DNA from: Chitinophagales bacterium 65-1 | GTDB taxonomy: Bacteria; Bacteroidota; Bacteroidia; Chitinophagales; Chitinophagaceae | Direction of reading: 5' to 3' | DNA length: 36,536 nt | NCBI GenBank assembly: GCA_002050465.1 | Contig: MWYX01000037.1 | Coordinates: 1-36,536 of the forward strand | Shown here: piece after piece, positions 6,515-31,250 of the stretch | Layout of the letters: each line of letters opens with the position of its first letter | Numbering within the stretch: the first letter of the stretch is position 1 | Made by a program: the position numbers and the translations under genes | Notes under the pieces: generated by a model | Told to the model about the DNA's origin: nothing | Seen by the model: the letters and a program-made list of their open reading frames with translations, nothing else | The model's database searches: none

Positions 6515-7789
6515 CTATTCATAGCGTAACGCTACTATTGGGTCAAGCTTTGATGCCTTGTAAGCCGGATACAGGCCTGCAAACAAACCAACCAGGGAAC
6601 AGACAATTATCCCTGTAATTACCCAACCCCAGGGAACCACAAACCCCGTTTTCAGCACTATCCCAAAAAGATTGCCAACTAACACACCGAGTACAATCCC
6701 AAACACCGCACCTATTAAACTAATAATAATAGATTCAAAAAGAAATTGCTGCCGGATACTCTTTTTGGTACCCCCGATCGCTTTTATCAGGCCGATTTCC
6801 CTGGTACGCTCATTTACTGCCACTAACATTATATTCATTAACCCTATAGCAGCTCCAATTAATGTTATCAATCCAATAAATGCAGCAGCCGTTGTTATGC
6901 TTCCCAGACTTTTTGTGAAAGCTTCTACAATACTGTCACTCTTATCTATAAAAAAATTATTTTCTTCAGAAAAAGCCAATTTCCTTATAGGCCTGAAAGT
7001 ACCCGTAGCCTCACCTACCGCAATATCCATGTCTTTAATATTCGGGACCATTACCCCAATATTCCAGGAGGTATTTGAAGTAGGAAAAAGTCGCCTGATA
7101 TTATTATAAGTTGTTATCACCACATTATCAGCATTTAAAAAGGCGCTTGAACCTTTGTCTTTTAAAATGCCTATTATTCTATATTTAATATTGGCAACTT
7201 TTATTATTTTGTCAACAGCCCTGGCGGGATTACCAAAAATTTTTTTTGCCACACTATTTCCCAATACACAAACACTTCTTCCGCTTTCAACATCCAGTTT
7301 ATTAAAATTTCTTCCGGCAAAAACCGTATACCCGCTTAGCCGTAAATAATTTTCATCGCCCCCCTGAACCACTACATTAGGATTGGTTTTTATTTTCTCA
7401 TTATTTACAACTACGTTCCTTGGGCCTCTTATGGAAATACTTACCATTGCCGGAAATGCAAACCTTTCTTTAAAAATTTTTGCCTGTTCGTAAGTAATTA
7501 TCTTTCCTGTATTAGATCTTTTTTCTTTTAATGCTCCCTTGGTTGTTTTTTTTACGTTGCTGTTTCTGGCACCAATCCGAACCTGACTTTCTTTAAAACG
7601 AATACTGAATGCATTTGCCCCCATTGTAGAGAAATTCTCTGTTAGACTTTGATTCATTGCTTCAATAGCAGTAATAATTCCAATTAAGGCCATTATACCA
7701 AAGGCAATGATGGCAACTGTTATACCTGTACGAAGTTTATTGCTCTTTACTGTTCGTAAGGCAAGGGAAAATGTATCAGTTGTTTGCAT
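6515..7789 (-). CDS. ABC transporter permease, MacB/FtsX type
   Basis: A 424-residue permease of the MacB type VII ABC superfamily. It has an N-terminal membrane helix (about 21-43, ITVAIIAFGIMALIGIITAI), a large periplasmic MacB_PCD domain of about 240 residues, and a C-terminal FtsX domain with three helices. These are separated by the conserved NERTREIGLIKAIGGTKKSI coupling segment, and the protein ends in the usual YPAYKASKLDPIVALRYE. Proteins of this type move lipoproteins, peptides or drugs across the envelope by mechanotransmission with an ATPase. No ATPase gene is next to it, so its partner must be elsewhere. It follows nuoN across a 76-base gap filled by a repeat hairpin and probably is not functionally tied to complex I. 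Confidence 0.92.
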   Translation of the reverse strand: MQTTDTFSLALRTVKSNKLRTGITVAIIAFGIMALIGIITAIEAMNQSLTENFSTMGANAFSIRFKESQVRIGARNSNVKKTTKGALKEKRSNTGKIITYEQAKIFKERFAFPAMVSISIRGPRNVVVNNEKIKTNPNVVVQGGDENYLRLSGYTVFAGRNFNKLDVESGRSVCVLGNSVAKKIFGNPARAVDKIIKVANIKYRIIGILKDKGSSAFLNADNVVITTYNNIRRLFPTSNTSWNIGVMVPNIKDMDIAVGEATGTFRPIRKLAFSEENNFFIDKSDSIVEAFTKSLGSITTAAAFIGLITLIGAAIGLMNIMLVAVNERTREIGLIKAIGGTKKSIRQQFLFESIIISLIGAVFGIVLGVLVGNLFGIVLKTGFVVPWGWVITGIIVCSLVGLFAGLYPAYKASKLDPIVALRYE

Positions 7790-7798
7790 TTATTAAAA

Positions 7799-7872
7799 AG
7801 TCATTAGGTCAATTGTCATTAGTAAATAAAGATAAATGATTAACCTTTGACTTAATGACTAATGACTAATAG
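7799..7872. repeat. Hairpin repeat of 7-base words between nuoN and the permease gene
   Basis: Two inverted arms, 7799-7824 and 7846-7872, separated by an AT-rich loop. The right arm reads as tandem 7-base words (TTGACTT, AATGACT, AATGACT, AAT) and the left as AGTCATT, AGGTCAA, TTGTCAT, TAG. The nuoN stop codon (7868-7866) lies inside the right arm. It could form an RNA hairpin in the nuo transcript. Confidence 0.7.
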
Positions 7873-9254
7873 TAGAGCCAGTCAACAACAAGGCCAGGCA
7901 TTACACCTAAAAGTAGAATAATAGCTGCAGTAAATATCAATAACCATTTAAAAGGAGGAGGAACATCCATTTGATGAGAAGCACCTTCGGAAGGTTCTTT
8001 AAAATACATAGCCTGTATCACTTTAAAATAATAATATGCACTAATGGCAGCACATATAACAGCCAGAATTACAAGCCAGAATTGATGTCCATTTTGTAGC
8101 GCAGCCAACAGCATATAAAACTTGGCATTAAAGCCAGCAGTTAATGGAATACCGGTAAGAGATAATAAAAATATAGTAGCGGTAAAAGCCAGAACAGGAT
8201 GCGTTTTCCCTAAGCCGTTAAAGCCTTCAATTGTATAATCATTCATTCTTACCAATATAGCAAATAACCCTATTGAGGCAAGACTGTAAGCAACTGAATA
8301 TAATATCAGCCCTTCCTTTGCGGTATCATTCAGTGCAAATAATGCCAGTAACATAAAACCTGCCTGTGCAATACTGGAATATGCCAGCATGCGTTTTACA
8401 CTCTGCTGAAAAACAGCAGTTAAATTTCCTATTAACAAAGTAGCTGCGGTTATTATTACAATAAGCGTTTGCCATTGCGATTGCATAGTACCGAATGAAC
8501 TTTGAAATAAACGGATAAATGCAATAAAACCTGCAACCTTTACAATAGTTGCCATAAAAGATGTAAATACAGTTGGAGCACCATCATATACATCAGGCGT
8601 CCAGAAATGAAATGGTGCTGCCGAAACTTTAAAAGACATAGCTACTACCAGTAATACTATACCAACAGCGATCATATCAGGCAAAGCTCCCTGCCCCAAT
8701 TGCATCATATCAATATTAAAAGAACCCAATGCATTGCCTCCATACAAAAATGCAATACCCATCAACATTATACCTGTGGAAAATGCACCCATTAAAAAAT
8801 ATTTTAAAGAAGCTTCATTACTTTTTAAATTGAGTTTATCACTGCCTGTTAAAATATACAATGGAATTGACATGATCTCTATGCCTAAAAACAACATGAG
8901 CAAACTATTAAATGAAGAAGAGATGGCAACTCCACACAGAACAAAAAATATTAAAGCGAAATATTCTGAAACATGGTTTCCTACTTTTTCTATGTCTCTG
9001 CCATTTAATAAAAAATATATCAATGTACAGAAAAGAGCAACTGTATTAAAATGCAATCCGAAGTTATCAAATCGGAGCATATTTTCGGAATAGATATCAA
9101 AGATTTTCACTCCCGTAAATTCAAGGATGTTAGCAGTTAATATTATTATTAAGCCTGCAATAGCCCAATATTTTGGAACAGAGGCTTTTTTAAAAAAGAC
9201 TCCGCCAAACATCATAATTACGCCCCATACTGCAGATAATATAATTGCACTCAT
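7866..9254 (-). CDS. nuoN: NADH-quinone oxidoreductase subunit N
   Basis: One of three antiporter-like proton-pumping subunits in the membrane arm of complex I. The 462-residue protein is almost entirely hydrophobic, with many predicted helices. It has the Proton_antipo_M core: GIEIMSIPLYILTGSDK near residue 125, MSFKVSAAPFHFWTPDVYDG near 207 and KRMLAYSSIAQAGFMLLALF near 285. It ends in VDWLYY, with the stop codon inside a repeat hairpin. It is the last nuo gene. An 86-base gap separates it from nuoM, and a repeat element lies directly before its ATG. Length matches NuoN rather than NuoL or NuoM. Confidence 0.96.
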   Translation of the reverse strand: MSAIILSAVWGVIMMFGGVFFKKASVPKYWAIAGLIIILTANILEFTGVKIFDIYSENMLRFDNFGLHFNTVALFCTLIYFLLNGRDIEKVGNHVSEYFALIFFVLCGVAISSSFNSLLMLFLGIEIMSIPLYILTGSDKLNLKSNEASLKYFLMGAFSTGIMLMGIAFLYGGNALGSFNIDMMQLGQGALPDMIAVGIVLLVVAMSFKVSAAPFHFWTPDVYDGAPTVFTSFMATIVKVAGFIAFIRLFQSSFGTMQSQWQTLIVIITAATLLIGNLTAVFQQSVKRMLAYSSIAQAGFMLLALFALNDTAKEGLILYSVAYSLASIGLFAILVRMNDYTIEGFNGLGKTHPVLAFTATIFLLSLTGIPLTAGFNAKFYMLLAALQNGHQFWLVILAVICAAISAYYYFKVIQAMYFKEPSEGASHQMDVPPPFKWLLIFTAAIILLLGVMPGLVVDWLYY

Positions 9255-9256
9255 AA

Positions 9257-9281
9257 TATCCCAACCCCTATAGGGGCTTTT
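9257..9281 (-). repeat. Leader repeat directly before nuoN (same family as before nuoG)
   Basis: On the minus strand it reads AAAAGCCCCTATAGGGG followed by TTGGGATAT, ending three bases before the nuoN ATG. CCCCTATAGGGG is a perfect 12-base palindrome. Nearly the same sequence occurs in the same position before nuoG (17411-17437), so this is a repeat family and not a chance hairpin. Confidence 0.75.
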
Positions 9282-9300
9282 AATTTACAATGTTTGTTAA

Positions 9301-9335
9301 TTCTTCTCATTACTTATTTCTTATTATTTATTATT
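9301..9335. repeat. Single arm of tandem 7-base words in the nuoM-nuoN gap
   Basis: Reads as TTCTTCT, CATTACT, TATTTCT, TATTATT, TATTATT, a degenerate 7-base tandem repeat. No matching inverted arm was found beside it. The sequence is low in complexity, so confidence is moderate, but the spacing matches the word-built hairpins in other nuo gaps. Confidence 0.4.
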
Positions 9336-9340
9336 GATAA

Positions 9341-10825
9341 TTATTTATCAAACCGGCTTAAAATTGTTGTCACTGTATCTTTCGTTAAGTCAAATACAGG
9401 CTTTGGATAAACACCTAAAACAAAAATGAATAATACAATCAGCGTTAATACAATTTTTTGTTTTTTTGTAACCAACGACACAACTTTTGTGAGAATATTA
9501 TCCTGCCCATAAAAAATTTTTTGTACCATATTTAATGTATACACTGCTGCCAATATTATACTAATGCCTGCAAGAGCAGCAAACCATGGGTTATACTCAT
9601 ACAATCCTGAGAACATTGCAAATTCGCCAACAAAGGCATTTGTAAGTGGTAATGCAATATTTGCCAAGGCAATAATTACAAAAAATATGGCGAGTAACGG
9701 AGTATGAAGCGCCAGGCCGCCAAGCTCTGAAAGTTTTCTTACCCCGGTATGCTTTTCAACTATATCAACCACTATCCACAATGCAATTATATTTATGCCA
9801 TGGTTTAGCATTTGTATCATTACCCCGTGCATCCCTGTGCTGTTGATGGTAAAAATAGCTGCACACATTAAACCGATGTGTGCAATAGAAGAGTAAGCAA
9901 CCAATCTTTTAAGATCATTCTGCACCATAGCTATGCAACTGGCATATATCATTCCTGCCACAGCTAATCCAATAACTATATTGTCAAATTTTAAAACTGC
10001 TTCCGGAAAAACAGGAAGCACCCATCTTATCACAGCAAATACACCCATCTTTACCATGATACCACTCAATACCATTGTTGCCGGTGCAGGGGATTGCTCG
10101 TATGTATCAGGCTGCCATGTATGAAAAGGAAATACAGGCATCTTTACCGCAAAAGCAATAAAAAATAACCAGAATAGCCATGTTTGATCTGATAAAGAAA
10201 TATTTGCCTTATAAAAGGCAGCTATTGAAAATGAATGATCAGAAAACTGAGTGGGACCGGTTTGCAGATAAACATAAATTATACCTACCAGCATTAATAA
10301 AGAACTGACAAATGTATAAATAAAAAATTTCCAGGTAGCGGCAATCCGTCGTTCTCCTCCCCACCGGCTGCATAAAAAATAAACCGGTATTAAAGCAAGC
10401 TCCCAAAAGAAATAAAATATCAATGCATCAATAGCAACAAATACTCCCATTAACCCTGCCTGGCTTAATAACATTAACCCAAAAAATGCATTGGGATTTT
10501 TATAATCATTTTTATAGGTAGCTGCAAAAATTATCGGGAAAGAAACTGCCGTTAAAAAAGTAAGCATGTGCCCCATGCCATCAAGACCAACTGCAAAGCT
10601 GCTGCCTAAATACTGCAGCCATATATAACTAACATAATTGTAGGAAAAATACTTTGTGTTATCGGTATAACATAAACTTACAACAGAAATAACCAAAGTG
10701 ATAAGGGATGAAAATAAAGCCCATGCCTTTACCTTTTTTTGATCTTTAATAAAAAACGCAAGCAAACCGGTTATAATTGGAAACCAAAGCAGCAGTTCAG
10801 GAAATGTAATGTACTTACCCAGCAT
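9341..10825 (-). CDS. nuoM: NADH-quinone oxidoreductase subunit M
   Basis: Antiporter-like proton-pumping subunit of complex I, 494 residues, polytopic throughout. Family hallmarks are FFWELALIPVYFLCSRWGGERR near residue 140 (with the glutamate of the pumping site), AVKMPVFPFHTWQPDTYEQSP near 226, and the block near residue 300 containing NDLKRLVAYSSIAHIGLM. The C-terminus YPKPVFDLTKDTV is typical. The gene begins five bases after the nuoL stop codon, so the two are very likely translationally coupled, as in most nuo operons. Confidence 0.97.
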   Translation of the reverse strand: MLGKYITFPELLLWFPIITGLLAFFIKDQKKVKAWALFSSLITLVISVVSLCYTDNTKYFSYNYVSYIWLQYLGSSFAVGLDGMGHMLTFLTAVSFPIIFAATYKNDYKNPNAFFGLMLLSQAGLMGVFVAIDALIFYFFWELALIPVYFLCSRWGGERRIAATWKFFIYTFVSSLLMLVGIIYVYLQTGPTQFSDHSFSIAAFYKANISLSDQTWLFWLFFIAFAVKMPVFPFHTWQPDTYEQSPAPATMVLSGIMVKMGVFAVIRWVLPVFPEAVLKFDNIVIGLAVAGMIYASCIAMVQNDLKRLVAYSSIAHIGLMCAAIFTINSTGMHGVMIQMLNHGINIIALWIVVDIVEKHTGVRKLSELGGLALHTPLLAIFFVIIALANIALPLTNAFVGEFAMFSGLYEYNPWFAALAGISIILAAVYTLNMVQKIFYGQDNILTKVVSLVTKKQKIVLTLIVLFIFVLGVYPKPVFDLTKDTVTTILSRFDK

Positions 10826-10830
10826 TAAAT

Positions 10831-12759
10831 CTATTTAACAAAAATTTGAATAATAAATAAAACTATTGTGCCTATAACCATCATTAAAATATAAGCTCCA
10901 ACCTGCCCGTTCTGCAACAACCTGATCTGGCGACTTCCAAAATTTACTCCTCTTCCCACACTATTTACTAATGCATCGATTCCTGATCTCTCAATTACAT
11001 TATTTAAGAAGACTGATAATGATCTTAATGGACGAACAATTATTGCATCATACAATTCATCAACATACCATTTATTTTGAAGCACTTTTGCAAAGCCGGT
11101 TTCTTCTGTAGTTTCTGTTTGATAATTTTTATATTTCTTCCATGCCCAAAATGAAACTATTAAAATTAATATTATAGAAACACCCGTTAGTAACCATTCA
11201 GTCTGATGCGGAATCGTATGCTTTGCTAAAATTGCATTTGAGTTACTGAAGACCGGATCTAAAAATTCCGCAAGCCTGTGGCCACCACTCATTAAAAATT
11301 CAGGTATGCCAAATAATCCGCCTACAATAGATAGGAATGCAAGAATGATTAATGGAATTGTAATAGCAGATGGACTTTCATGTACATGATGTAATTGTTC
11401 TTCCATGCCACGGAATTTTCCCATGAACGTCATGGCTAATAATCTAAACATATAAAAAGCTGTAAGTAATGCTCCTCCCAAACCAACGGCATATAACACA
11501 GGATTTTCTGCAAATGCACCAGCTAAAATTTCATCTTTGGAAAAGAAACCAGAGAAGGGCGGAATACCTGCAATGGCGATACATCCTATAAAAAAAGTAA
11601 TGTAAGTGATCTTCATGTGTTTGCTCAATCCACCCATCTTCCTTATATCCTGCTCACCACCCATTGCATGAATTACAGAGCCAGCACCAAGGAATAATAA
11701 TGCCTTAAAAAATGCATGTGTCATTACATGAAATACTGCGCCGGTATATGCTCCTACTCCCAATCCTAAAAACATATATCCCAACTGACTCACCGTTGAA
11801 TAAGCCAGAACCTTTTTAATATCGTTTTGTTTTAATGCAATTGTTGCAGCAAAAATTGCGGTAGTTAAACCGATGATTGCAACAACCATCATTGTAGTTG
11901 GAGCCAGTGTGTACATAAGGTTACTCCGGGCAATCATATAGATGCCGGCAGTAACCATAGTAGCAGCATGAATTAATGCAGATACAGGTGTTGGGCCAGC
12001 CATCGCATCCGGCAGCCAAGTGTACAATGGTATTTGTGCACTTTTACCAATAGCACCAACAAACAGCAATATAGTAATGCCTACTAATGTGGGAGAATTA
12101 ATTGCAGATATAGAGTTAATTATTCCATTTTGGTGATTAAATAATTCATGAAAAGAAACAGAACCAAAAGCATTTATCATCCAAAATATTCCTAATAGAA
12201 ACCCAAGATCACCAATGCGGTTCATGATAAATGCCTTTTTTGCAGCATTATTGTAAGCAGTATTCTTAAACCAATAACCAATCAATAAATAAGAACATAA
12301 ACCTACTCCCTCCCAGCCTATGAACATGATGACATAGTTTGCTCCCATTACCAGTAACAACATCGAGAACACAAAAAGATTGAGGTAAGAAAAATATCTT
12401 GCAAAATGTGGAACAGTTTCTTCTTTCATGTATGAAGTTGAATACACATGAATAAGAAAACCCACACCTGTGATAATCAATAAAAACAATGAAGAAAGCT
12501 GATCGATCTGGAAAGCAAAATCAACTTTTATTTTGCCCACATTAATAAAATCAAAATAAGAAATTACCTGCGGCACAAATCCTTCCTGCCTAACATTAAA
12601 AAAAACAAGAACGCTTAATACAAAGGATATTAAAATAGCGCCGCTACCGATAATACTTACCAATGACTTTGACAATACGTTTCTTGCCAAACCATTAATT
12701 AAAAAACCGATTAGTGGCAGTAATGGAATAAGATAAATTAAGTCGAATGTATTAGTCAT
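10831..12759 (-). CDS. nuoL: NADH-quinone oxidoreductase subunit L
   Basis: The distal antiporter-like subunit of the complex I membrane arm, 642 residues. It has the N-terminal Proton_antipo_N part with YMKEETVPHFARYFSYLNLF near residue 110 and GWEGVGLCSYLLIGYW near 147, and the central antiporter domain with the block around residue 250 containing YTWLPDAMAGPTPVSALIHA and NDIKKVLAYSTVSQLGYM near 310. The long C-terminal lateral-helix region that distinguishes NuoL from NuoM and NuoN contains NKWYVDELYDAIIVRPLRSL. Length is close to that of other NuoL proteins. A 61-base gap containing a word-built hairpin separates it from nuoK. Confidence 0.97.
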   Translation of the reverse strand: MTNTFDLIYLIPLLPLIGFLINGLARNVLSKSLVSIIGSGAILISFVLSVLVFFNVRQEGFVPQVISYFDFINVGKIKVDFAFQIDQLSSLFLLIITGVGFLIHVYSTSYMKEETVPHFARYFSYLNLFVFSMLLLVMGANYVIMFIGWEGVGLCSYLLIGYWFKNTAYNNAAKKAFIMNRIGDLGFLLGIFWMINAFGSVSFHELFNHQNGIINSISAINSPTLVGITILLFVGAIGKSAQIPLYTWLPDAMAGPTPVSALIHAATMVTAGIYMIARSNLMYTLAPTTMMVVAIIGLTTAIFAATIALKQNDIKKVLAYSTVSQLGYMFLGLGVGAYTGAVFHVMTHAFFKALLFLGAGSVIHAMGGEQDIRKMGGLSKHMKITYITFFIGCIAIAGIPPFSGFFSKDEILAGAFAENPVLYAVGLGGALLTAFYMFRLLAMTFMGKFRGMEEQLHHVHESPSAITIPLIILAFLSIVGGLFGIPEFLMSGGHRLAEFLDPVFSNSNAILAKHTIPHQTEWLLTGVSIILILIVSFWAWKKYKNYQTETTEETGFAKVLQNKWYVDELYDAIIVRPLRSLSVFLNNVIERSGIDALVNSVGRGVNFGSRQIRLLQNGQVGAYILMMVIGTIVLFIIQIFVK

Positions 12760-12774
12760 ATAATCTTCAAATAA

Positions 12775-12815
12775 GAAGTAAGAGATAAGAAAACTTGATT
12801 CTATATTCTTACTTC
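12775..12815. repeat. Hairpin repeat of 7-base words between nuoK and nuoL
   Basis: Arms at 12775-12787 (GAAGTAAGAGATA) and 12802-12815 (TATATTCTTACTTC) are inverted copies with a short loop. Starting slightly upstream, the left arm reads as the 7-base words TAAGAAG, TAAGAGA, TAAGAAA. It fills most of the 61-base gap between the nuoK stop and the nuoL start. Confidence 0.65.
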
Positions 12816-12820
12816 ATACA

Positions 12821-13153
12821 TCAATTCTTTAACCTGTTTAAAAAGTTTATGTCAACTGAATGGGTATTTCTATACATCATTACAATAATTGCCAGACCCA
12901 CACTAACTTCAGCGGCAGCAACAACCATTATAAAAAAAACAAACAACTGCGCATCCGTTGCAAGCGCAGGAGCTTTTGCGGCTATACCACTCATATGCAT
13001 CTTTGAAAAAGCAACCAGCAACAGATTAACCGAATTGAGCATTAACTCAATGCACATAAAAACTATAATTGCATTGCGGCGTGTAAGTGCACCAATAATT
13101 CCTATACAGAATAGGGCCGCCGATAAAAATATATACCACTTTATTTCCATCAA
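12821..13153 (-). CDS. nuoK: NADH-quinone oxidoreductase subunit K
   Basis: Small membrane subunit of complex I (homologue of ND4L), 110 residues with three helices at roughly 5-24, 29-51 and 65-88. The conserved glutamates are visible in [17 protein letters not shown] (Glu36) and in [20 protein letters not shown] (Glu72). The ATG overlaps the stop of the upstream secreted-protein gene by four bases (13150-13153), an arrangement that usually couples translation. Confidence 0.96.
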
Positions 13154-13686
13154 TCGATTTTTACATATAAGCCTATACCCATTGTATTTGATGCCGGTGC
13201 AATTGAAAAAATATCTTTTATTTTTCTTGCAGCTATGCCGTTAAAAATATCTACTGCTTTATACGCCGCCCCTTTGGTTAATAATTTTACTAATACTCCT
13301 GTAGCCACACTTGTTAATCCTCCGATTAATGCACCTTTATAATTTGCCCTGCTGGCTGAATCCCCCGCCGCTTTTTTTACTACTCCATATAATGCAACTG
13401 CACTGCCAGCATAGGATGTAATCTGGAATATTGTTCTGCCTGTACGGAATGTATTGAAGAGCTTGTTCACGTCAGGATTTCTTTTCATTCCAAGTATTTC
13501 GGCTACTTTGGGGATTTTTGGTATTTTAATATTTCCTAAAAAAAACTCTGGTGAGAACCCACGTTCAACCTTCATCACCCTCCCAATAATATCATTCAGA
13601 TCTAAATTTTCGAGATCAATTTGTGCAGATGATTGCTTCGTAATTCCTAAAAATAGGATGGCAATAATTAAAATGTGTTTTTTCAT
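13150..13686 (-). CDS. Secreted protein of unknown function inside the nuo operon
   Basis: A 178-residue protein I do not recognise. Residues 1-21 form a typical Sec signal peptide ([21 protein letters not shown], likely cut before QIDL). The mature part has an Asp/Leu-rich start, an [15 protein letters not shown] segment, and two moderately hydrophobic glycine- and alanine-rich stretches (about 92-105 and 115-135) that could be membrane-active or merely helical. It starts eight bases after nuoJ and overlaps nuoK by four bases, so it must be co-transcribed and probably co-translated with complex I genes. Standard nuo operons have nothing here. Whether it assists complex I or is a passenger cannot be decided from sequence. 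Confidence 0.8.
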
Positions 13687-13694
13687 ATTATAGA

Positions 13695-14213
13695 TTAAGG
13701 GTTTACTTGTTTTTGTTCATCCTTTTTACCAATAACAACTGCACCTACCATGGCACTCAAAAACAGGATACTGCTTATCTCAAAGGGAATAACATATGTT
13801 GTAAATAATGACCGGCCGAGATTCTTTATTAACCCTACATCACTGCCTCTCGCCAACGAGACTTTAATGTCAGAAGATTCTGCCAGTGCAGCTACTAAAA
13901 CAATCATCAGGCACATCCCGGCAATAACACCTGCAAATTTTAAATATTTATTTTTCGCAGGTTCAGCGTCAGCATTCAGGTTCATCAGCATTATCACAAA
14001 TAGAAACAAAACCATTATAGCCCCGGCATACACAATAATATTTACAATAGCCAAAAATTGTGCATTCATTAAAATGTAATGACCGGAAATTGAAAAGAAA
14101 ACAACAATAAGCCATAACACACTATAGATAGGGCTTTTACTTAATACAACACCTATAGCAGCCCCAACAGCTAATACAGATAAAAACCAAAATAATATTT
14201 GTGTGACCTCCAT
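13695..14213 (-). CDS. nuoJ: NADH-quinone oxidoreductase subunit J
   Basis: Membrane subunit of complex I (homologue of ND6), 172 residues with five predicted helices. The conserved third-helix region is seen in VNIIVYAGAIMVLFLFVIML near residue 57, which includes the pi-bulge helix involved in coupling. The C-terminal EISSILFLSAMVGAVVIGKK is also typical. It lies between nuoI (80-base gap with a repeat arm) and the extra secreted-protein gene (eight-base gap). Confidence 0.95.
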   Translation of the reverse strand: MEVTQILFWFLSVLAVGAAIGVVLSKSPIYSVLWLIVVFFSISGHYILMNAQFLAIVNIIVYAGAIMVLFLFVIMLMNLNADAEPAKNKYLKFAGVIAGMCLMIVLVAALAESSDIKVSLARGSDVGLIKNLGRSLFTTYVIPFEISSILFLSAMVGAVVIGKKDEQKQVNP

Positions 14214-14217
14214 TAAA

Positions 14218-14254
14218 AGTTGCGGGTTATGAGTTGTGCGCTACGAGTTGTTAA
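14218..14254. repeat. Single arm of 7-base words in the nuoI-nuoJ gap
   Basis: From 14219 it reads as the 7-base words GTTGCGG, GTTATGA, GTTGTGC, GCTACGA, GTTGTTA. The words TATGAGTTGT and TACGAGTTGT recur at 14-base spacing. No clear inverted partner is present, so this looks like half of one of the word-built hairpins seen elsewhere in the operon. Confidence 0.55.
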
Positions 14255-14293
14255 TTGATTGAAATCTATATTCATAAACTAAACTTTCTTATA

Positions 14294-14860
14294 TCAATGC
14301 TCATTACCATGTCCTTCAGGATTTTTTGCCCTGCTGCCCCTGGCTTTTGCAAATGCTTCCGGCTCATTTACCGGGTGCGGAATTAAAAGATCATCCTTTC
14401 CATAAATAAATCCCTTACGCTGGAAATTCGATGGCGCAAAAGTTTCACTTAGATAAACTGCATCCTTAGGACAAGCCTCTTCACAAAAACCACAAAAAAT
14501 ACAGCGAAGCATATTTATTTCATACTTAGCCGCATATTTTTCTTCTTTATATAAATGTTCTTCGCCTGGTTGCCTTTCTGCTGCTTCCATTGTTATAGCT
14601 TCTGCCGGACAGGCAACTGCACACAACCCGCAGGCAGTACATTTTTCCCTTCCTTCTTCATCACGATTTAAAATCTGTAATCCACGAAAGACAGGACTAA
14701 AAGGGCGTGTCTTTTCAGGATAATTTATTGTTGGATTCTTTTTAAAAATATGGCTGAAGGTAATTGCCATACCTTTTAAGATAGCAGGCAAGTACATTCT
14801 TTCCCACCATGTCATCGGTTTTCTTGAGACAACTTCTACTTTATTTGTTAGTGCTTGCAT
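14294..14860 (-). CDS. nuoI: NADH-quinone oxidoreductase subunit I
   Basis: Peripheral-arm subunit of complex I carrying two [4Fe-4S] clusters (N6a and N6b) that pass electrons towards NuoB. Both ferredoxin motifs are intact: CTACGLCAVAC (Cys74, 77, 80, then Cys84 before PAEA) and CIFCGFCEEAC (Cys120, 123, 126, then Cys130 before PKDA). An N-terminal amphipathic stretch, MTWWERMYLPAILKGM, fits the membrane-facing helix. The 188-residue length is normal, with a charged C-terminal tail. The 42-base gap to nuoH contains a small perfect hairpin. Confidence 0.97.
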   Translation of the reverse strand: MQALTNKVEVVSRKPMTWWERMYLPAILKGMAITFSHIFKKNPTINYPEKTRPFSPVFRGLQILNRDEEGREKCTACGLCAVACPAEAITMEAAERQPGEEHLYKEEKYAAKYEINMLRCIFCGFCEEACPKDAVYLSETFAPSNFQRKGFIYGKDDLLIPHPVNEPEAFAKARGSRAKNPEGHGNEH

Positions 14861-14871
14861 TATTTGTGTTA

Positions 14872-14886
14872 GCGCAAAAGTTGCGC
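14872..14886. other. Small perfect hairpin in the nuoH-nuoI gap
   Basis: GCGCAA and TTGCGC form a perfect 6-bp stem around the three-base loop AAG (14878-14880), 12 bases upstream of the nuoI start on the minus strand. It stands out as GC-rich within an AT-rich gap. No T run follows in the direction of transcription, so it is not a standard terminator. Confidence 0.5.
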
Positions 14887-14902
14887 AAATATATTTTTAT
14901 GT

Positions 14903-15964
14903 TTAGAAATGCCAGTTGTTTTGTTTTAATAATATTAATCCCCCTGTTACTATCATATTAAAAAGCGCCATAGGAATTAAAATTTTCCATCCGAGATTCA
15001 TTAACTGGTCGTAACGAAAACGGGGAATTGTCCATCTTACCCACATGAATAAAAAAAGGAAACTAACTATTTTACCAAACAAACAAAGTCCCTGTAAAAT
15101 CGCTGCCCAGTTAATACCTATATTTTGTGCAAGATTAACATCATTTACAAAGGGAATATCATACCCTCCAAAAAATAAGCTCACCATAACAGCACTGCTT
15201 AAAAACATGTTGATGTATTCGGCAAATAAATAAAATCCAAGTTTCATGGAAGAGTATTCAGTATGATATCCTCCCACTAACTCATTTTCTGCCTCTGCAA
15301 GATCGAATGGCGTTCGATTACATTCGGCAAATGCACAAACTAAAAAAATGAGAAACCCCAAAGGCTGTTTAAATATATTCCACCAATGATCCATTTGCCC
15401 GCCAACCATTTCCTTTAAACTAAGTGTTCCTGTTACCATCAACAATGCAATTAATGAAATACCCATTGCCAGTTCGTAACTGATAATTTGTGAGGAAGCT
15501 CTCATAGCACCTAACAAGGAAAATTTATTATTGCTTGCCCATCCACCGATCATAATACCATATACACCCATACTCACCACCCCGAATATGTATAGTACGC
15601 CTATATTAATATCAGCAATCTGTAAAGAAATATCTCTACCGAATAAATGCACTTTGTTGCCCCACGGAATTACAGCGCCGATCATCATTGCAGTAAGCAT
15701 TGCCAGGCATGGCCCCAGAATAAATAAAAACTTAGATGAGAAACTTGGAATGATCTCCTCTTTAAAAAATAATTTTAGGCCATCTGCCAGTGGTTGTAAA
15801 ATACCGAACGGGCCGGCACGGCTTGGCCCTCTTCTATCCTGTAGAACAGCCGCCACCTTACGTTCCATATAAGTGGAATACATTGCAATTACCAATGACC
15901 CGCTTACAACTGAAATTATCAGAACAAGCTTTTCTATAAAAATTGCCCAATCAATTACTAACAT
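14903..15964 (-). CDS. nuoH: NADH-quinone oxidoreductase subunit H
   Basis: Membrane subunit at the junction of the two complex I arms that forms much of the quinone chamber (homologue of ND1). The 353-residue protein has about eight helices. Landmarks are YMERKVAAVLQDRRGPSRAG near residue 31, ILQPLADGLKLFFKEEIIP near 54, AECNRTPFDLAEAENELVGG near 215 followed by YHTEYSSMKLGFYLFAEYIN, and the C-terminal WVRWTIPRFRYDQLMNLGWK. These charged loops are the most conserved parts of the family. It starts two bases after the stop of the small extra membrane-protein gene. Confidence 0.97.
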   Translation of the reverse strand: MLVIDWAIFIEKLVLIISVVSGSLVIAMYSTYMERKVAAVLQDRRGPSRAGPFGILQPLADGLKLFFKEEIIPSFSSKFLFILGPCLAMLTAMMIGAVIPWGNKVHLFGRDISLQIADINIGVLYIFGVVSMGVYGIMIGGWASNNKFSLLGAMRASSQIISYELAMGISLIALLMVTGTLSLKEMVGGQMDHWWNIFKQPLGFLIFLVCAFAECNRTPFDLAEAENELVGGYHTEYSSMKLGFYLFAEYINMFLSSAVMVSLFFGGYDIPFVNDVNLAQNIGINWAAILQGLCLFGKIVSFLFLFMWVRWTIPRFRYDQLMNLGWKILIPMALFNMIVTGGLILLKQNNWHF

Positions 15965-15966
15965 TA

Positions 15967-15996
15967 TTATAGCGTATTTAGATCAGTTGAATCTGT
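15967..15996 (-). repeat. Direct repeat, copy 2 (3' end of the small membrane-protein gene)
   Basis: On the minus strand it shares about 26 of 30 bases with the 3' end of nuoG (16200-16229). Both begin ACAGATTCAACT and continue to an AAATACGC block just before the stop codon. The pair exactly brackets the extra gene. Confidence 0.65.
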
Positions 15997-16203
15997 AGCC
16001 TCCTGGTTAATATTTTTCCTCTTTTTTTTCTCAATAAAATAAAATGCAATTGAATCTGCAATAATCATGGCTATCATACCACCACCTGAAATGATTATTG
16101 ATTTTTTTAAGCTCCAATTAAATAAAAAATACATTGCCAAAAAAGCTATAATTGCATAAACAGGCACTGATATAAAGTATATCATTTTAGTTTTTTTATT
16201 CAT
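15967..16203 (-). CDS. Small two-helix membrane protein of unknown function in the nuo operon
   Basis: A 78-residue protein I do not recognise. It has two likely membrane helices, about 8-29 (YFISVPVYAIIAFLAMYFLF) and 36-56 (IISGGGMIAMIIADSIAFYF), then a very basic stretch KKKRKN and a polar tail. Its ATG overlaps the nuoG stop by four bases, and nuoH begins two bases after its stop, so it is embedded in the operon. The last 30 bases of the gene closely copy the last 30 bases of nuoG, so the gene is bracketed by a short direct repeat. This may record insertion between nuoG and nuoH. A role in complex I assembly is possible but unsupported. Confidence 0.7.
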   Translation of the reverse strand: MNKKTKMIYFISVPVYAIIAFLAMYFLFNWSLKKSIIISGGGMIAMIIADSIAFYFIEKKKRKNINQEATDSTDLNTL

Positions 16204-16229
16204 GGCGTATTTGGATTAGTTGAATCTGT
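16200..16229 (-). repeat. Direct repeat, copy 1 (3' end of nuoG)
   Basis: Partner of 15967-15996. The encoded tails are similar too: TDSTNPNTP at the end of NuoG and TDSTDLNTL at the end of the small protein, with the four mismatches spread evenly. Confidence 0.65.
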
Positions 16230-17411
16230 TCCTTTTTCATTAGGACCAGCACCAATTTTCACATCTGTTACATTATGCCCCGATGCATGAGGATCACCAT
16301 TAAAAGTTTTACCAACAGCCGGCCCTTCAATCTCACTTAAATGCACTTGGGGGGTATTCACTTCACTTTCATCATGAATATCCAACAACAAATGTGGCTT
16401 ACGCCCCTGCAATACTTTTTCCAACGGGTCAGGTGCAGCTATAGTGCCAACATAATGTCCCTGGGAAATAACGGAGTGACGATCAATTTTTGTTGCTCCT
16501 TCAATTACCCAATCATCTGTATGCTTTTTTTCAAACCTGCATGTATTGCATATCCACGCCGGTTTTCCGTCAGGCAAAGTTTGAACTTCACCCCACTGAT
16601 CTTTACGGGCCGTAACACGATACACTTCATCACCCCGGTTCCAGATCGTTACTTTACCGCAACATTTATCACAATCACGATGAGCATCCATAGGTTTTAA
16701 AAACCAAACACGATTTTTAAAACGGTAAGTTCTATCGGTTAATGCGCCTACCGGGCAAACATCAATCATGCTTCCGCTGAAATCATTTTCAATTGCTTTT
16801 GATATATAAGTAGATATTTCTGATTTATCTCCCCGGTCTAAAATTCCATGAAACCTGTTATCGGTCAACTGGTCTGCAACATAGGTACAGCGATAACAAA
16901 GTATACAACGCGTCATGTGCAGTTGTATGTACGGGCCAATATCTTCTCTTTCAAAAGTTCTTCTTGCAAATTCATAACGGGTTTGCACAGCGCCATGTTC
17001 ATAACTAAGATCCTGCAGATCACATTCTCCAGCCTGATCACAAACCGGGCAATCAAGTGGATGATTAATTAATAAAAATTCAACAACGCCTTTTCTTGCA
17101 TCCAACACTTTGTCGCTGGTAATATTTTTCACTTCCATCCCATCCATTACAGTTGTTCTGCAGGATGCAATAAGCTTAGGCATTGGGCGTGGATCTTTTT
17201 CAGAACCTTTGCTAACCTCAACCAAACAGGTACGGCATTTACCACCGCTATCTTTTAAATGAGTGTAATAACACATGGCGGGAGGAGCAACTTCTCCTCC
17301 AATCATCCGTGCAGCATTTAAAATAGTTGTACCTGCAGGAACATCAATAGTAATATTATCTATTGTTACTTTAAGATTTTGTGGTGCCGTATTTTTAATT
17401 TCTTCAGCCAT
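16200..17411 (-). CDS. nuoG: NADH-quinone oxidoreductase subunit G, short form
   Basis: Electron-transfer subunit of complex I. The 403-residue protein has the N-terminal [2Fe-2S] ferredoxin domain (Cys47, Cys59, Cys62, Cys84), then the NuoG cluster-binding domain with HPLDCPVCDQAGECDLQD near 117-134, and a [4Fe-4S] region with CILCYRC and CPVGALTD. A further DCDKCCGKV and CNTCRFEKKH region follows. The large molybdopterin-oxidoreductase-like C-terminal domain of E. coli NuoG (about 900 residues) is absent. To my knowledge short NuoG is normal in Bacteroidota, so this is not read as a truncation. The ATG is formed at the edge of a repeat element (GGGATATGG) shared with the nuoN leader. The last 30 bases are duplicated at the end of the next gene. 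Confidence 0.95.
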   Translation of the reverse strand: MAEEIKNTAPQNLKVTIDNITIDVPAGTTILNAARMIGGEVAPPAMCYYTHLKDSGGKCRTCLVEVSKGSEKDPRPMPKLIASCRTTVMDGMEVKNITSDKVLDARKGVVEFLLINHPLDCPVCDQAGECDLQDLSYEHGAVQTRYEFARRTFEREDIGPYIQLHMTRCILCYRCTYVADQLTDNRFHGILDRGDKSEISTYISKAIENDFSGSMIDVCPVGALTDRTYRFKNRVWFLKPMDAHRDCDKCCGKVTIWNRGDEVYRVTARKDQWGEVQTLPDGKPAWICNTCRFEKKHTDDWVIEGATKIDRHSVISQGHYVGTIAAPDPLEKVLQGRKPHLLLDIHDESEVNTPQVHLSEIEGPAVGKTFNGDPHASGHNVTDVKIGAGPNEKGTDSTNPNTP

Positions 17412-17437
17412 ATCCCAAGCCCCTAAAGGGCTTTTTT
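17411..17437 (-). repeat. Leader repeat directly before nuoG (same family as before nuoN)
   Basis: On the minus strand it reads AAAAAAGCCCTTTAGGGG then CTTGGGATAT, running into the nuoG ATG. It aligns closely with 9257-9281 before nuoN, both ending TTGGGATAT. AAGCCC and GGGCTT can pair around a five-base loop. On the plus strand it resembles a terminator, but no plus-strand gene precedes it. Confidence 0.75.
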
Positions 17438-17457
17438 ATTTTTATTATTTAAAATTA

Positions 17458-18825
17458 TTATGCTTTAACCAAGTCCCCTTCAGGGGATTTAGGGGTATCA
17501 GCATAATGTGCCAATCCATAATTTGTTTTTAAACATTCTTCGGGGTGTAATACATGCCATTCAAATTCATCTCTAAAATGCCTTATTGCTGCTGCAACAG
17601 GCCATGCTGCCGCATCACCTAAAGGGCAGATCGTATTGCCCTCAATCTTTCGTTGAATATCCCACAAAAGGTCAATATCTTTTAGTTCGCCCCTTCCATA
17701 TTCAATCTTCTTTAAGATCTTTTCCATCCAACCGGTTCCCTCCCTGCAGGGTGAGCATTGCCCACAACTTTCATGATGATAAAATCTTGCTAAACTCATT
17801 GTATGACGAACAATACATTGGTCTTCATCCAATACTTCAAATCCCCCGCTTCCCATCATGGAGCCTGTTGCAAAACCGCCATCTGCAAGGCTCTCATAAT
17901 TCATCAATCTTGTTTCGCCTTTGGCTGTTTTTAATAATAAGTTAGCCGGAAGAATTGGCACTGATGATCCACCAGGAATGCATGCTTTCAATCTTTTTCC
18001 ATTGGGTATGCCGCCGCAATACTCATCGCTGTAAATAAATTCCTGAACAGACATGGTCATATCAATTTCATACACACCAGGCTTATTAATATTTCCACAA
18101 GCGCTCATCAATTTTGTTCCGGTTGATTTACCAACGCCAATCTTTGCATATGCATCTGCGCCTTCATTAATGATCGGGACAACCGCTGCTAATGTTTCAA
18201 CATTATTTACAACTGTGGGGCAATCCCATACACCTCTAACTGCGGGGAATGGTGGTTTAATTCTTGGTAAACCTCTTTTACCTTCAAGGCTTTCTATTAA
18301 TGCAGTTTCTTCTCCGCATATGTAGGCTCCTGCACCACGATGCGTATAGATCTCGCAATCAAATCCGCTTCCTAAAATATTTTTGCCAAGAAAGTCATAT
18401 TGCTTTGCTTCTGCAATTGCATTATCCAGAATATCTGTTATCCAATCATACTCGCCACGTATATAGATATAAGAAACATTACTGCCCAGCGCAAATGCAG
18501 AAACGATCATTCCTTCAATTAATAAATGCGGAAGAAATTCCATCAGGTAGCGGTCTTTAAAAGTACCGGGCTCACTTTCATCTGCATTGCAGACAAGATA
18601 TCTTGCAACTCCTTCTGGCTTTGCCAAAAAACTCCATTTCATTCCCGTAGGAAAACCTGCACCACCACGACCTCGCAAACCACTTTTCTTTACTTCTTCC
18701 ACAATATCATTGGGTGCCATTTTTAAGGCTTTCTCCACACTTTTATATCCACCCTCACGGCGATATACATCATAGCCACGGATGCCTTCAATGTTTGCCT
18801 TTTCTAATAATAATTTTCTTGCCAT
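17458..18825 (-). CDS. nuoF: NADH-quinone oxidoreductase subunit F
   Basis: The NADH-oxidising subunit of complex I, binding FMN and [4Fe-4S] cluster N3. The 455-residue protein shows the FMN/NADH glycine-rich site GLRGRGGAGFPTGMKW (about 49-64), LVCNADESEPGTFKDR near 76, the GAGAYICGEETALIESLEG block near 165, the soluble-ligand binding segment, and the cluster motif ESCGQCSPCREGT with the distal cysteine in TICPLGDAAAWPV. The last 14 residues, ADTPKSPEGDLVKA, follow the normal end of the protein and are encoded by an inserted short repeat. The gene starts on the base after the NTF2-like gene's stop codon. Confidence 0.97.
   Translation of the reverse strand: MARKLLLEKANIEGIRGYDVYRREGGYKSVEKALKMAPNDIVEEVKKSGLRGRGGAGFPTGMKWSFLAKPEGVARYLVCNADESEPGTFKDRYLMEFLPHLLIEGMIVSAFALGSNVSYIYIRGEYDWITDILDNAIAEAKQYDFLGKNILGSGFDCEIYTHRGAGAYICGEETALIESLEGKRGLPRIKPPFPAVRGVWDCPTVVNNVETLAAVVPIINEGADAYAKIGVGKSTGTKLMSACGNINKPGVYEIDMTMSVQEFIYSDEYCGGIPNGKRLKACIPGGSSVPILPANLLLKTAKGETRLMNYESLADGGFATGSMMGSGGFEVLDEDQCIVRHTMSLARFYHHESCGQCSPCREGTGWMEKILKKIEYGRGELKDIDLLWDIQRKIEGNTICPLGDAAAWPVAAAIRHFRDEFEWHVLHPEECLKTNYGLAHYADTPKSPEGDLVKA
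17471..17496. repeat. Short repeat forming the 3' end of nuoF
   Basis: On the minus strand it begins ACCCCTAAATCCCCTGAAGG and continues GGACTT; CCCCTGAAGGGG inside it is a near-perfect hairpin. Read in frame it gives TPKSPEGDL, a peptide string I recall as a C-terminal tail on various unrelated Bacteroidota proteins, which points to a mobile or amplified short repeat. Confidence 0.7.
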
Positions 18826-29791: not shown

Positions 29792-29949
29792 TCTGAACTG
29801 GGATTTATGGGAGTTTTAGGAATTAATGGGAAAATGTTACTAGTATTTTTTTCGAAAGATTAAATTTTTATTTATTGTATTAATCCCATTAATCTTCTAA
29901 TCCCATAAATCATGGTTCAGACAATCCTGTAATCAATGGTTCAGACAAT
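29792..29949. repeat. Long hairpin repeat, copy A, between ATPase and permease genes
   Basis: Left arm about 29792-29832 (TCTGAACTGGGATTTATGGG onward); right arm about 29877-29925, ending GGTTCAGACAAT. The arms are inverted copies built from degenerate 9-base words (such as GATTTATGG, GATTAGAAG, ATTAATGGG). The right end is partly duplicated 24 bases further on (29936-29949, ATGGTTCAGACAAT), and this second copy contains the permease start codon. Copy B of the same family lies at 31106-31250. Confidence 0.85.
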
Positions 29950-31114
29950 TTTACCCCTTCTTAACACAAGTAAAAACAAGATAAGTAAATGGATCAGTTA
30001 TTTTGGTTTAGGCATTGGCGTAGTGCTGCTGCTAAGTTCTATGCAAATGTTTCTGAACATAAATAATTTATTAAAAGAAAATAATCCCCGGAAAGATGGA
30101 TTTGATTTTTTCTCTGTAACTAAAGTGATCACGAATGAGAATATGGGGAAAGACAATACTTTTAAAGATGATGAGCTCAATGAATTAAAAAACCATCCGA
30201 CTGTTGAAGATGCTGCTCCATTAATATCTAACCAATACAGGGTGAAAGCAAGTGCCGGAAATATAATTCCTTTCAGCACTGATCTATTTTTAGAAAGTAT
30301 TGATGATGCATTTATTGATACAGTGCCTCCTGGATTTAAATGGGAGCCCGGTCAAACTACTGTGCCGATTATTTTTTCTTCAGACTTCCTTGAGTTGTAT
30401 AATGTATTTGCACCCAGCCAGGATCTTCCCCAGCTTTCCGGTAAAACAATTTCAGCTGTAAATATTATTCTGGAAGTTTATGGAGCCACCGGGGTACAAA
30501 ATTTTGCAGGAAATATTGTAGCGCTTAGTGACCGTATAAATTCTGTTATTGTACCTAAATCTTTTATGGAATGGAGTAATCAGACTTTTGGTGGTGTATC
30601 AAAAGTAAATCCATCAAGAGTTTATATCAAGACAAAGGATGCTAATAACCCGCAGCTGATCTCGTTTTTAGATAGTAAAAAATATCATCTAAATAAAGAC
30701 AAAACAAAATTTGGAAGAATTAAAAAAGTACTGCAAAATATTGTAAGCGCCCTGGGTGTGTTTGGAATTCTTGTAATTGTTCTTGCATTAATATTGTTCT
30801 CTTTTTACTTACAGCTGATGATAGCAAAAAGCAAAGAGAATTTGCAGTTATTGCTTACACTGGGTTATTCCCCGGATTGGCTGAGTAAAACGGTTGCCAA
30901 AACATGGATTCCTATATATGTTTTTGTAGTTATCGCTGCTGTTATCATCACGGCTACAATGCATTATACGTTTGTAAAAGTATCTTTTGTTGAAGGAAAT
31001 GATCTCTCTTATTTTTTGCATTGGAGTGTACTCGCAATTGGACTGTTATTACTTGCACTTTCTATCTTTACGAATTACAGATTGGTGAAGAAAGAATTAT
31101 ATAGAATTGTCTGA
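29936..31114 (+). CDS. FtsX-like ABC transporter permease
   Basis: A 392-residue permease. It has one N-terminal membrane helix (about 19-41, WISYFGLGIGVVLLLSSMQM), a periplasmic domain of about 220 residues, and three C-terminal helices (about 269-296, 318-342 and 354-376) of the FtsX type. Together with the upstream ATPase it forms a MacB/LolCDE-like transporter. The start codon and first residues, MVQTI, come from the end of repeat copy A. The same MVQTIL codons occur in frame 24 bases upstream but are followed by a stop. There is no other ATG before the first helix. The stop codon lies in repeat copy B. The gene thus appears to be framed by repeats at both ends. Confidence 0.88.
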   Translation: MVQTILPLLNTSKNKISKWISYFGLGIGVVLLLSSMQMFLNINNLLKENNPRKDGFDFFSVTKVITNENMGKDNTFKDDELNELKNHPTVEDAAPLISNQYRVKASAGNIIPFSTDLFLESIDDAFIDTVPPGFKWEPGQTTVPIIFSSDFLELYNVFAPSQDLPQLSGKTISAVNIILEVYGATGVQNFAGNIVALSDRINSVIVPKSFMEWSNQTFGGVSKVNPSRVYIKTKDANNPQLISFLDSKKYHLNKDKTKFGRIKKVLQNIVSALGVFGILVIVLALILFSFYLQLMIAKSKENLQLLLTLGYSPDWLSKTVAKTWIPIYVFVVIAAVIITATMHYTFVKVSFVEGNDLSYFLHWSVLAIGLLLLALSIFTNYRLVKKELYRIV

Positions 31115-31250
31115 ACTGAGATTTATGGGATTAAAGGAGTATTGGATTAAAAAATATTCAATTCCAATTCTATTTAATTAGGGAAGGCATTTATTTTCCT
31201 CTTAATCCCATAAATCTCAAAAATCCCGGTTCAGACAATCACGGTTCGGA
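31106..31250. repeat. Long hairpin repeat, copy B, between permease and thiolase genes
   Basis: Left arm from 31106 (ATTGTCTGAACTGAGATTTA) and right arm to 31239, ending GGTTCAGACAAT, are inverted copies; the arm words are GATTTTTGA, GATTTATGG, GATTAAGAG on the minus strand. A second partial end unit (CACGGTTCGG) follows, as in copy A. The permease stop codon (31112-31114) is in the left arm and the thiolase stop codon (31241-31239) is in the right-end unit. The hairpin spans the convergent gap and could serve as a bidirectional terminator. Confidence 0.85.

Follow-up and report, generated by a model that had tools for sequence, protein, structure and literature searches.

Hairpin repeats with a fixed polarity at gene edges in the nuo operon of a Chitinophagales bacterium and in other Bacteroidota

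Results

Hairpin repeats in the nuo operon

The DNA analysed here (the window) is a stretch of 36,536 nucleotides (nt) of contig MWYX01000037.1 from Chitinophagales bacterium 65-1 (assembly GCA_002050465.1), which encodes the nuo operon on the minus strand. Short hairpin repeats were confirmed directly upstream of both nuoN and nuoG, where the original prediction had placed them. That prediction had recorded only these two copies, both of which are real, and had missed a third, inverted copy in the 3' end of nuoF. The unit common to the family is a palindromic core, CCCCTNNAGGGG, followed after 2-6 nt by a GGG(G) run that mostly ends in T or C, hereafter called the tail; the opposite end is called the head. 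The source genome (G000, in which the window is contig G000:C9) is a 1.96-Mb draft that is 79.5% complete, and all other G numbers denote relatives. The three genes concerned matched the expected Pfam families. The features are as follows.

7866-9254, minus strand: nuoN (PF00361, E 2.2e-64)
9258-9281, minus strand: nuoN-leader copy, AAAAG-CCCCTATAGGGG-TTGGGAT, with its tail toward the nuoN ATG (9252-9254)
9265-9276, minus strand: palindromic core CCCCTATAGGGG of the nuoN copy, an exact match and one of 13 sites in the genome
16200-17411, minus strand: nuoG (PF22117, PF10588, PF13510)
17412-17437, minus strand: nuoG-leader copy, AAAAAAG-CCCTTTAGGGG-CTTGGGAT, a 7-bp hairpin touching the ancestral nuoG ATG (17409-17411)
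17458-18825, minus strand: nuoF (PF01512, PF10589), with a C-terminal end rewritten by the inverted copy in comparison with relatives
17471-17498, plus strand: third, inverted copy, AAGT-CCCCTTCAGGGG-ATTTAGGGGTAT, with its tail into the nuoF 3' end

The sense strand reads AAAAGCCCCTATAGGGGTTGGGATATT and then ATG at the nuoN start, and AAAAAAGCCCTTTAGGGGCTTGGGAT and then ATG at the nuoG start, with 10 nt and 8 nt, respectively, between core and AUG. The nuoG copy is a shorter variant with a CCC/GGGG core that is one base short; it was missed by the strict core pattern and stands outside the edge counts given below. The third copy codes for part of the last nuoF residues (...TPKSPEGDLVKA) and forms, with the nuoG copy, a pair with outward tails that spans the nuoF-nuoG junction. 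By our own reading, the nuoF C-terminus is ...SPEGDLVKA where the inverted copy overlaps the gene edge. The proposal that the edge of the repeat makes the nuoG ATG was not borne out, as relatives that lack the repeat, the closely related G008 (ATGGCTGAAG...) among them, use the same ATG. The repeat was likewise ruled out as the source of the nuoN start codon, which is the same in relatives lacking it, and, as judged by eye from the C-termini, it does not seem to supply the nuoK and nuoL stop codons in G046.

Size and distribution of the repeat family

When three mismatches were allowed, the window contained 7 core matches against 1.97 expected, a number reached in 1 of 100 shuffles, so that the window by itself is only moderate evidence against chance. 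The exact core CCCCTNNAGGGG was present at 13 sites in the whole G000 draft, at 86 sites in G046 and at 63 in G015, and the reversed-pattern control gave none in any of the three. These counts, together with the gene-edge test described below, ruled out a chance origin of the repeats. Core plus tail was found in 57 of 196 genomes (G000 counted), in patchy numbers, while the reversed control occurred in 5 of the 196 with 12 matches. A scan of named genomes for GCCCCTTTAGGGGTTTGGGGT returned at least 120 stretches; all 80 among the matches listed were Bacteroidota by name, including Pedobacter, Carboxylicivirga, Terrimonas, Marinifilum, Draconibacterium and others. The 20-base pattern was also present in 14 stretches of viral contigs. 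No Rfam family matched positions 9000-17700 of the window above its gathering score.

The tail faces the coding sequence

Among 130 distinct exact copies in the named-genome set, 124 were intergenic according to a home-made gene caller. In the first run of this caller, a coding-sequence edge was found no more than 15 nt from the tail in 56 of the 108 intergenic copies that had a gene on the tail side, and equally close to the head in 3 of the 105 that had one on the head side. The run was repeated with looser gene calls on 98 named-genome copies that had genes on both sides; copies from the tandem locus L264, inside genes or close to the end of a locus were left out. The corresponding counts were 61/98 for the tail and 5/98 for the head (Fisher, 1e-18), and in 39 of the 98 the tail was between -1 and 3 nt from the edge. 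The same caller was poorly trained on G032, G131 and G100 (ten 3-kb loci each), and placed 0 of 11 G100 copies at an edge.

Since gene calls might mislead, a test independent of them was added, in which an edge is a frame of at least 100 codons stopping, or an ATG opening one, within -2 to +6 nt. For 241 copies the tail was at an edge in 100 cases (61 stops and 39 starts) and the head in 6; random positions gave 842 of 27,120. By genome, the tail was at an edge in 31/50 copies of G046, 18/44 of G015, 7/13 of G000, 4/11 of G032, 3/8 of G131 and 37/115 of the named set. The three most deeply sampled genomes together gave 56 of 107 copies at a coding-sequence edge, of which 36 abut stops and 20 abut starts. 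A genome-wide check of position relative to start codons had been suggested, and an insertion preference for start regions offered as one explanation; the bias proved real and of fixed polarity, but it is toward coding-sequence edges in general, stops included, and not toward starts alone, which bears out the suggested preference in part.

Contact between tail and gene was also observed in long intergenic gaps. With the looser gene calls, the tail was at the edge in 15 of 26 copies in gaps of 150-300 nt (2.2 expected) and in 8 of 28 in gaps of 300-2000 nt (0.9 expected), with 0 and 1 heads at the edge, respectively. Single copies in gaps of 150-2000 nt had the tail at the edge in 14 of 33 cases and the head in 1 of 33. 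Tight operon junctions alone therefore do not force the contact. The head flank was rich in A at starts only, with an A content of 0.49 for start-abutting copies (n=57), 0.31 for stop-abutting copies (n=99; P 4e-13) and 0.37 for the remaining copies (n=221). Natural nuo leaders, with an A content of 0.42 (n=658), resemble the head flanks of start-abutting copies, and the pattern is consistent with an element lodged between the leader and the ATG. In G046 loci L118 and L126, copies overlapping the gene edge were read by us as translated short N-terminal tails (...PLGDGGK...).

Adjacent copies point their tails outward

Where two copies lay no more than 300 nt apart, the tails pointed outward in 75 of 81 cases, a count that excludes the arrays of the L264 and G100 loci. 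The members of a pair were 33-270 nt apart, and of 22 spacers 15 matched no other; three long G046 spacers have about 80 nt in common. Variable spacing and mostly unmatched spacers indicate that the copies do not as a rule come as one fixed pair. The G046 nuoJ-nuoK, nuoK-nuoL and nuoL-nuoM gaps are 106, 128 and 133 nt long, each with a pair, against gaps down to 4, 1 and 4 nt in single relatives. At G046 L126, each of two divergent genes has a copy at its start, and a region of 47 nt lies between.

Presence among relatives

In place of the outward pair and the rewritten nuoF end of G000, the nuoF-nuoG junction of the close relative G008 has a gap of 4 bp. The nuoG copy was present in 1 of 10 readable genus junctions, that of G000. 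At parA, for which 30 loci of the 59 genomes with a match were compared, a copy was found in 4 of 19 genus loci (G000, G008, G010 and G015) and in 0 of 11 outside the genus, where G031 has a different hairpin with a CAGGGC tail. At rpsD-rpoA (30 loci of the 55 genomes with a match), a pair of cores was found in G000 and G015, 2 of the 30 loci, and other hairpins stand beside the rpsD stop in G010 and G032.

In relatives, among them L174 (G010), L173 (G015), L192 (G047) and L193 (G058), the nuoF-nuoG junction repeatedly carries other inserts of roughly 430-590 bp, with short terminal inverted repeats and small open reading frames (ORFs) of two kinds. One kind matched PF13366 (PDDEXK_3; G010 piece), and the other had no Pfam match (G057 piece). 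This junction thus seems to be a hot spot for several types of insert.

RNA folding and the nuoN leaders

As RNA, the nuoN copy folds at -9.4 kcal/mol (z -1.03 against dinucleotide shuffles) and the nuoG copy at -9.8 kcal/mol (z -1.30); both fold, but not clearly better than the shuffles. The third copy gave z -2.83 on the plus strand and z -1.67 on the minus strand, the sense strand of nuoF. No general hairpin signal was found in nuo leaders against shuffles, the mean z per gene ranging from -0.45 to 0.02 (nuoG to nuoM), and the nuoN leaders (-0.26) were no stronger than those of nuoM (-0.45).

By eye, 9 of the 19 readable genus members have some hairpin ahead of the nuoN ATG, as does G029 outside the genus; the exact core was present in 3 of the 19. 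Reading by eye also found stems altered on both sides in G005 (CAC/GTG) and G008 (TCCGT/ACGGA). A MAFFT alignment of ten nuoN leaders misaligned the stems. These leaders give the best hint of a retained structure. The nuoG copy places a G at position -3, while the trailing ATT of the nuoN copy keeps an A there. In the accessible text of PMC6847099, A at -3 is reported to favour initiation in Flavobacterium johnsoniae, with secondary structure also of importance.

Other hairpins and repeats

Among 804 hairpins with a different core and a G-run behind it, 72 had the tail at an edge and 15 had the head there, a ratio that is indicative only, as the loci had mostly been chosen for the main core, chance hairpins are included and one site was counted twice. 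Examples at starts are TCCGCCGCGGCGGATTTAGGGG then TATG and TCCCGATGTTTCGGGATTTGGGG then TATG. A second repeat family of the window (GTTCAGACAA) had 10 copies among the loci retrieved, 1 of them at a gene edge, which is too few for a test.

A repeat of the form AATCCCATAAATC..GGTTCAGACAAT occurs in the window at 29886-29950, 31100-31145 and 31208-31240. Inverted copies flank an FtsX-like ORF (29936-31114), reaching into its start codon at one end and its stop codon at the other, and one more copy lies against the stop codon of the following ORF; the loci retrieved held too few copies for a test. An intergenic repeat around GTTGCGTCGCACTC (related form GAGTGACACAACGATGATG) occupies longer gaps in both orientations. 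It was detected by match in G046 (L119, L121 and L145) and by eye in G046 (L123, L124, L125 and L137), occurs also at G015 L112 and L159 and at G000 L005, and was seen by eye in the rpsD-rpoA gaps of G010, G019, G026 and G035. Elsewhere in the operon, a 178-residue ORF lies between nuoJ and nuoK (13150-13686, minus strand), for which the Pfam search returned no match; the nuoJ-nuoK gap measures 526-568 nt in nine genus members including G000.

Discussion

The explanation that we favour, and hold to be somewhat probable, is that these repeats are insertional hairpins resembling repetitive extragenic palindromes (REPs), placed or kept at gene edges, and not a device built for the nuo operon. They would represent a class of short DNA hairpins dispersed in the genomes of Bacteroidota, each made up of a core (CCCCTNNAGGGG among the copies examined), a stretch of 2-6 nt and a G-run tail, and would be acquired or multiply as small insertional elements that are not autonomous. 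Far more often than expected by chance, such an element lies at a coding-sequence edge with its tail facing the gene, either between an A-rich leader and the ATG or right behind the stop, and the precision could come from insertion or from retention. The nuoN and nuoG copies would become part of the transcribed leader, where their effect would be incidental, probably a mild change in initiation rather than a designed control of ratios.

Several observations weigh against this explanation. The edge test failed for 141 of the 241 copies, some of which represent missed genes or displaced starts while others lie free in long gaps. At rpsD-rpoA the tail ends 26-27 nt before the rpoA ATG, in front of a conserved A-rich rpoA leader. 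None of the ten G100 loci (of 43 sites) had a copy at a gene edge, most of them looking satellite-like (L354-L381, away from gene edges), and the copies at L264 of Labilibaculum filiforme (6973-7775), which recur in tandem about every 130 nt, also lie away from gene edges. Sampling was partial: G046 contributed 50 of its 86 core sites and G015 contributed 44 of its 63, and 11 and 8 copies came from ten loci each in G032 (77 CCCCTTTAGGGG sites) and G131 (80). The start criterion, which takes any ATG opening 100 codons, is looser than the stop criterion. The empty sites come from different species, no insertion at strain level and no target duplication was seen, and some copies may have arisen by mutation in place.

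The search for a mobilising enzyme also counts against it. Searches of Y1 co-occurrence and neighbourhoods found no moving enzyme: the core lay near the transposase in 1 of 20 Y1 regions (3.2-4.5 kb, ten relatives), Y1 matches occur in 149 of 196 genomes, and G100, G130, G031 and G043 have repeats without a Y1 match (drafts may miss genes). Mobilisation by a Y1 transposase of the REP-associated type (RAYT) was unsupported both by genome co-occurrence, judged by eye, and by the Y1 neighbourhoods. The two Y1 loci of G000 have no CCC..GGG palindrome of the hairpin family. The stronger of them (L014, G000:C23:3517-3858 with flanks) is surrounded by a different palindrome, GTTCCGTAGGAAC, which is perhaps the REP-like partner of that transposase.

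The chief competing explanation is a selected RNA element, in which a hairpin before the AUG or behind the stop tunes initiation, termination or operon coupling and is kept for that function. The exact position at gene edges, the nuoN-slot hairpins of nearly half the genus members with stem changes on both sides in G005 and G008, the use of the same slot by other hairpin cores, and the report that stop-proximal REPs of Escherichia coli lower translation (PMC12306157, in the text accessible) all speak for it. At stops, however, it is the C-rich complement that lies on the sense strand, and a single RNA function hardly fits both placements; copies are lineage-specific, the nuoG copy being absent from 9 of 10 genus junctions; and neither the folding of the nuoN and nuoG copies nor the nuoN leaders as a set stood out. 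Moreover, the nuoG copy, though not the nuoN copy, supplies a G at the position where A is favourable in F. johnsoniae, and repair of the palindrome or a different family of hairpins could also account for the altered nuoN stems. We consider a selected RNA element unlikely. Within the nuo operon, a translation-start hairpin setting the ratio of subunits, as had been suggested, found no support: the hairpin is absent at nuoG in G008, it stands inverted at stops, and there is no general leader signal. Its spotty presence makes such a role unlikely.

A paired unit with outward tails, similar to the bacterial interspersed mosaic elements (BIMEs) or REPINs, could have been inserted whole in tight junctions, and abutment would then reflect survivor bias, as such a unit would be tolerated only in the few bases between genes. 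The prevalence of outward tails, the pair-filled G046 gaps that are nearly empty in single relatives, the G000 nuoF-nuoG pair opposite the 4-bp junction of G008, and the sequence common to three long G046 spacers are in keeping with this, and it accounts for part of the data. As a general account it is improbable, because abutment persists in long gaps and for single copies, spacing is variable with most spacers unmatched, and the divergent genes of G046 L126 carry copies at both starts. Weak transcription terminators evolved behind genes (a hairpin and then CTTT, read tail to head) would suit the stop-abutting copies, which sit at terminator positions, and AAAG is the commonest tetranucleotide directly 5' of the core (84 of 415), which read in that direction gives GGGGCTTT. 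The stem is short, though, start-abutting copies read the opposite way before the ATG, and nuo and rpsD-rpoA are examples of operons with internal pairs, which leaves this origin very improbable.

A wider form of the insertional-hairpin explanation would be a process of insertion or retention, acting throughout the phylum Bacteroidota, that recognises coding-sequence edges. Unrelated cores with a common G-tail, tails inward at the first base of start codons and directly after stop codons, and the same edge hit independently in different lineages would fit it, and we offer it tentatively, as possible but rather doubtful. If true, precision of this kind would imply either that insertion is tied to the boundaries of translation or of transcription, or that a tail at gene edges is strongly selected. 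Dispersed hairpins are usually seen as loosely intergenic; in several lineages of Bacteroidota those described here are precise and polar at both gene ends, with one layout for hairpins that differ in sequence. The question of REP-like placement and its effect on translation thus becomes testable in a phylum whose mRNAs are described, in the accessible text of PMC6847099, as lacking Shine-Dalgarno sequences. For annotation, the copies call for caution, as they can shift starts and extend conserved proteins by a short tail at the N- or C-terminus.

As regards known systems, the literature matches listed for the repeat strings contained only TAAATCCCCT, in unrelated work. Start-codon abutment, the inward tail and a tail common to other cores were not found described in the literature searched, outside which most subscription papers lie, and none of the papers listed presented this hairpin family in its title or at the start of its abstract. 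The RepRanger table (PMC12306157) gives high palindrome counts in two Flavobacterium species and in Thermoflavifilum, and the accompanying passages on Bacteroidota contain no family, tail or start-codon analysis. The repeats of TnpA-REP (RAYT) systems, including subclass 2.4, which is abundant in Bacteroidetes according to the accessible text of PMC6006769, are similar in their hairpins, inverted pairs and occasional in-frame copies; they differ in that no REPtron was seen here, the core was rarely beside Y1_Tnp, and copies occurred in Y1-negative genomes. The REP foot tag GT[AG]G or CGTC was rarer than in control windows: GTAG, GTGG or CGTC lay within 8 nt of the core on the head side in 4 of 415 copies and on the tail side in 0 of 415, compared with 15 of 414 control windows. 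Because the foot tag and a neighbouring Y1 gene both fail, the hairpins were filed as REP-like and not as members of the REP/RAYT group. The conserved spacer and fixed length of a miniature inverted-repeat transposable element, or of a REPIN as one paired unit, were not found either.

The E. coli REPs within 15 nt of a stop codon that are reported to lower translation (PMC12306157, accessible text) resemble the present repeats in having a hairpin just behind the stop and a possible effect on translation, but here a fixed end faces the coding sequence and starts are abutted as well. Compared with the REP sequences and BIMEs of the GTAG and CGTC families, as portrayed in the accessible text of PMC3733652, the Bacteroidota hairpins differ in their G-run tail, in abutting starts as well as stops and in combining several cores with one tail layout. 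They share with those families the character of short palindromes in many copies, dispersed and mostly intergenic. They also share inverted pairs with one end outward, as in BIMEs and HH dimers, corresponding to the opposite-orientation dimers described there, many of which lie less than 20 bp from the 3' ends of ORFs with termini that can overlap coding ends.

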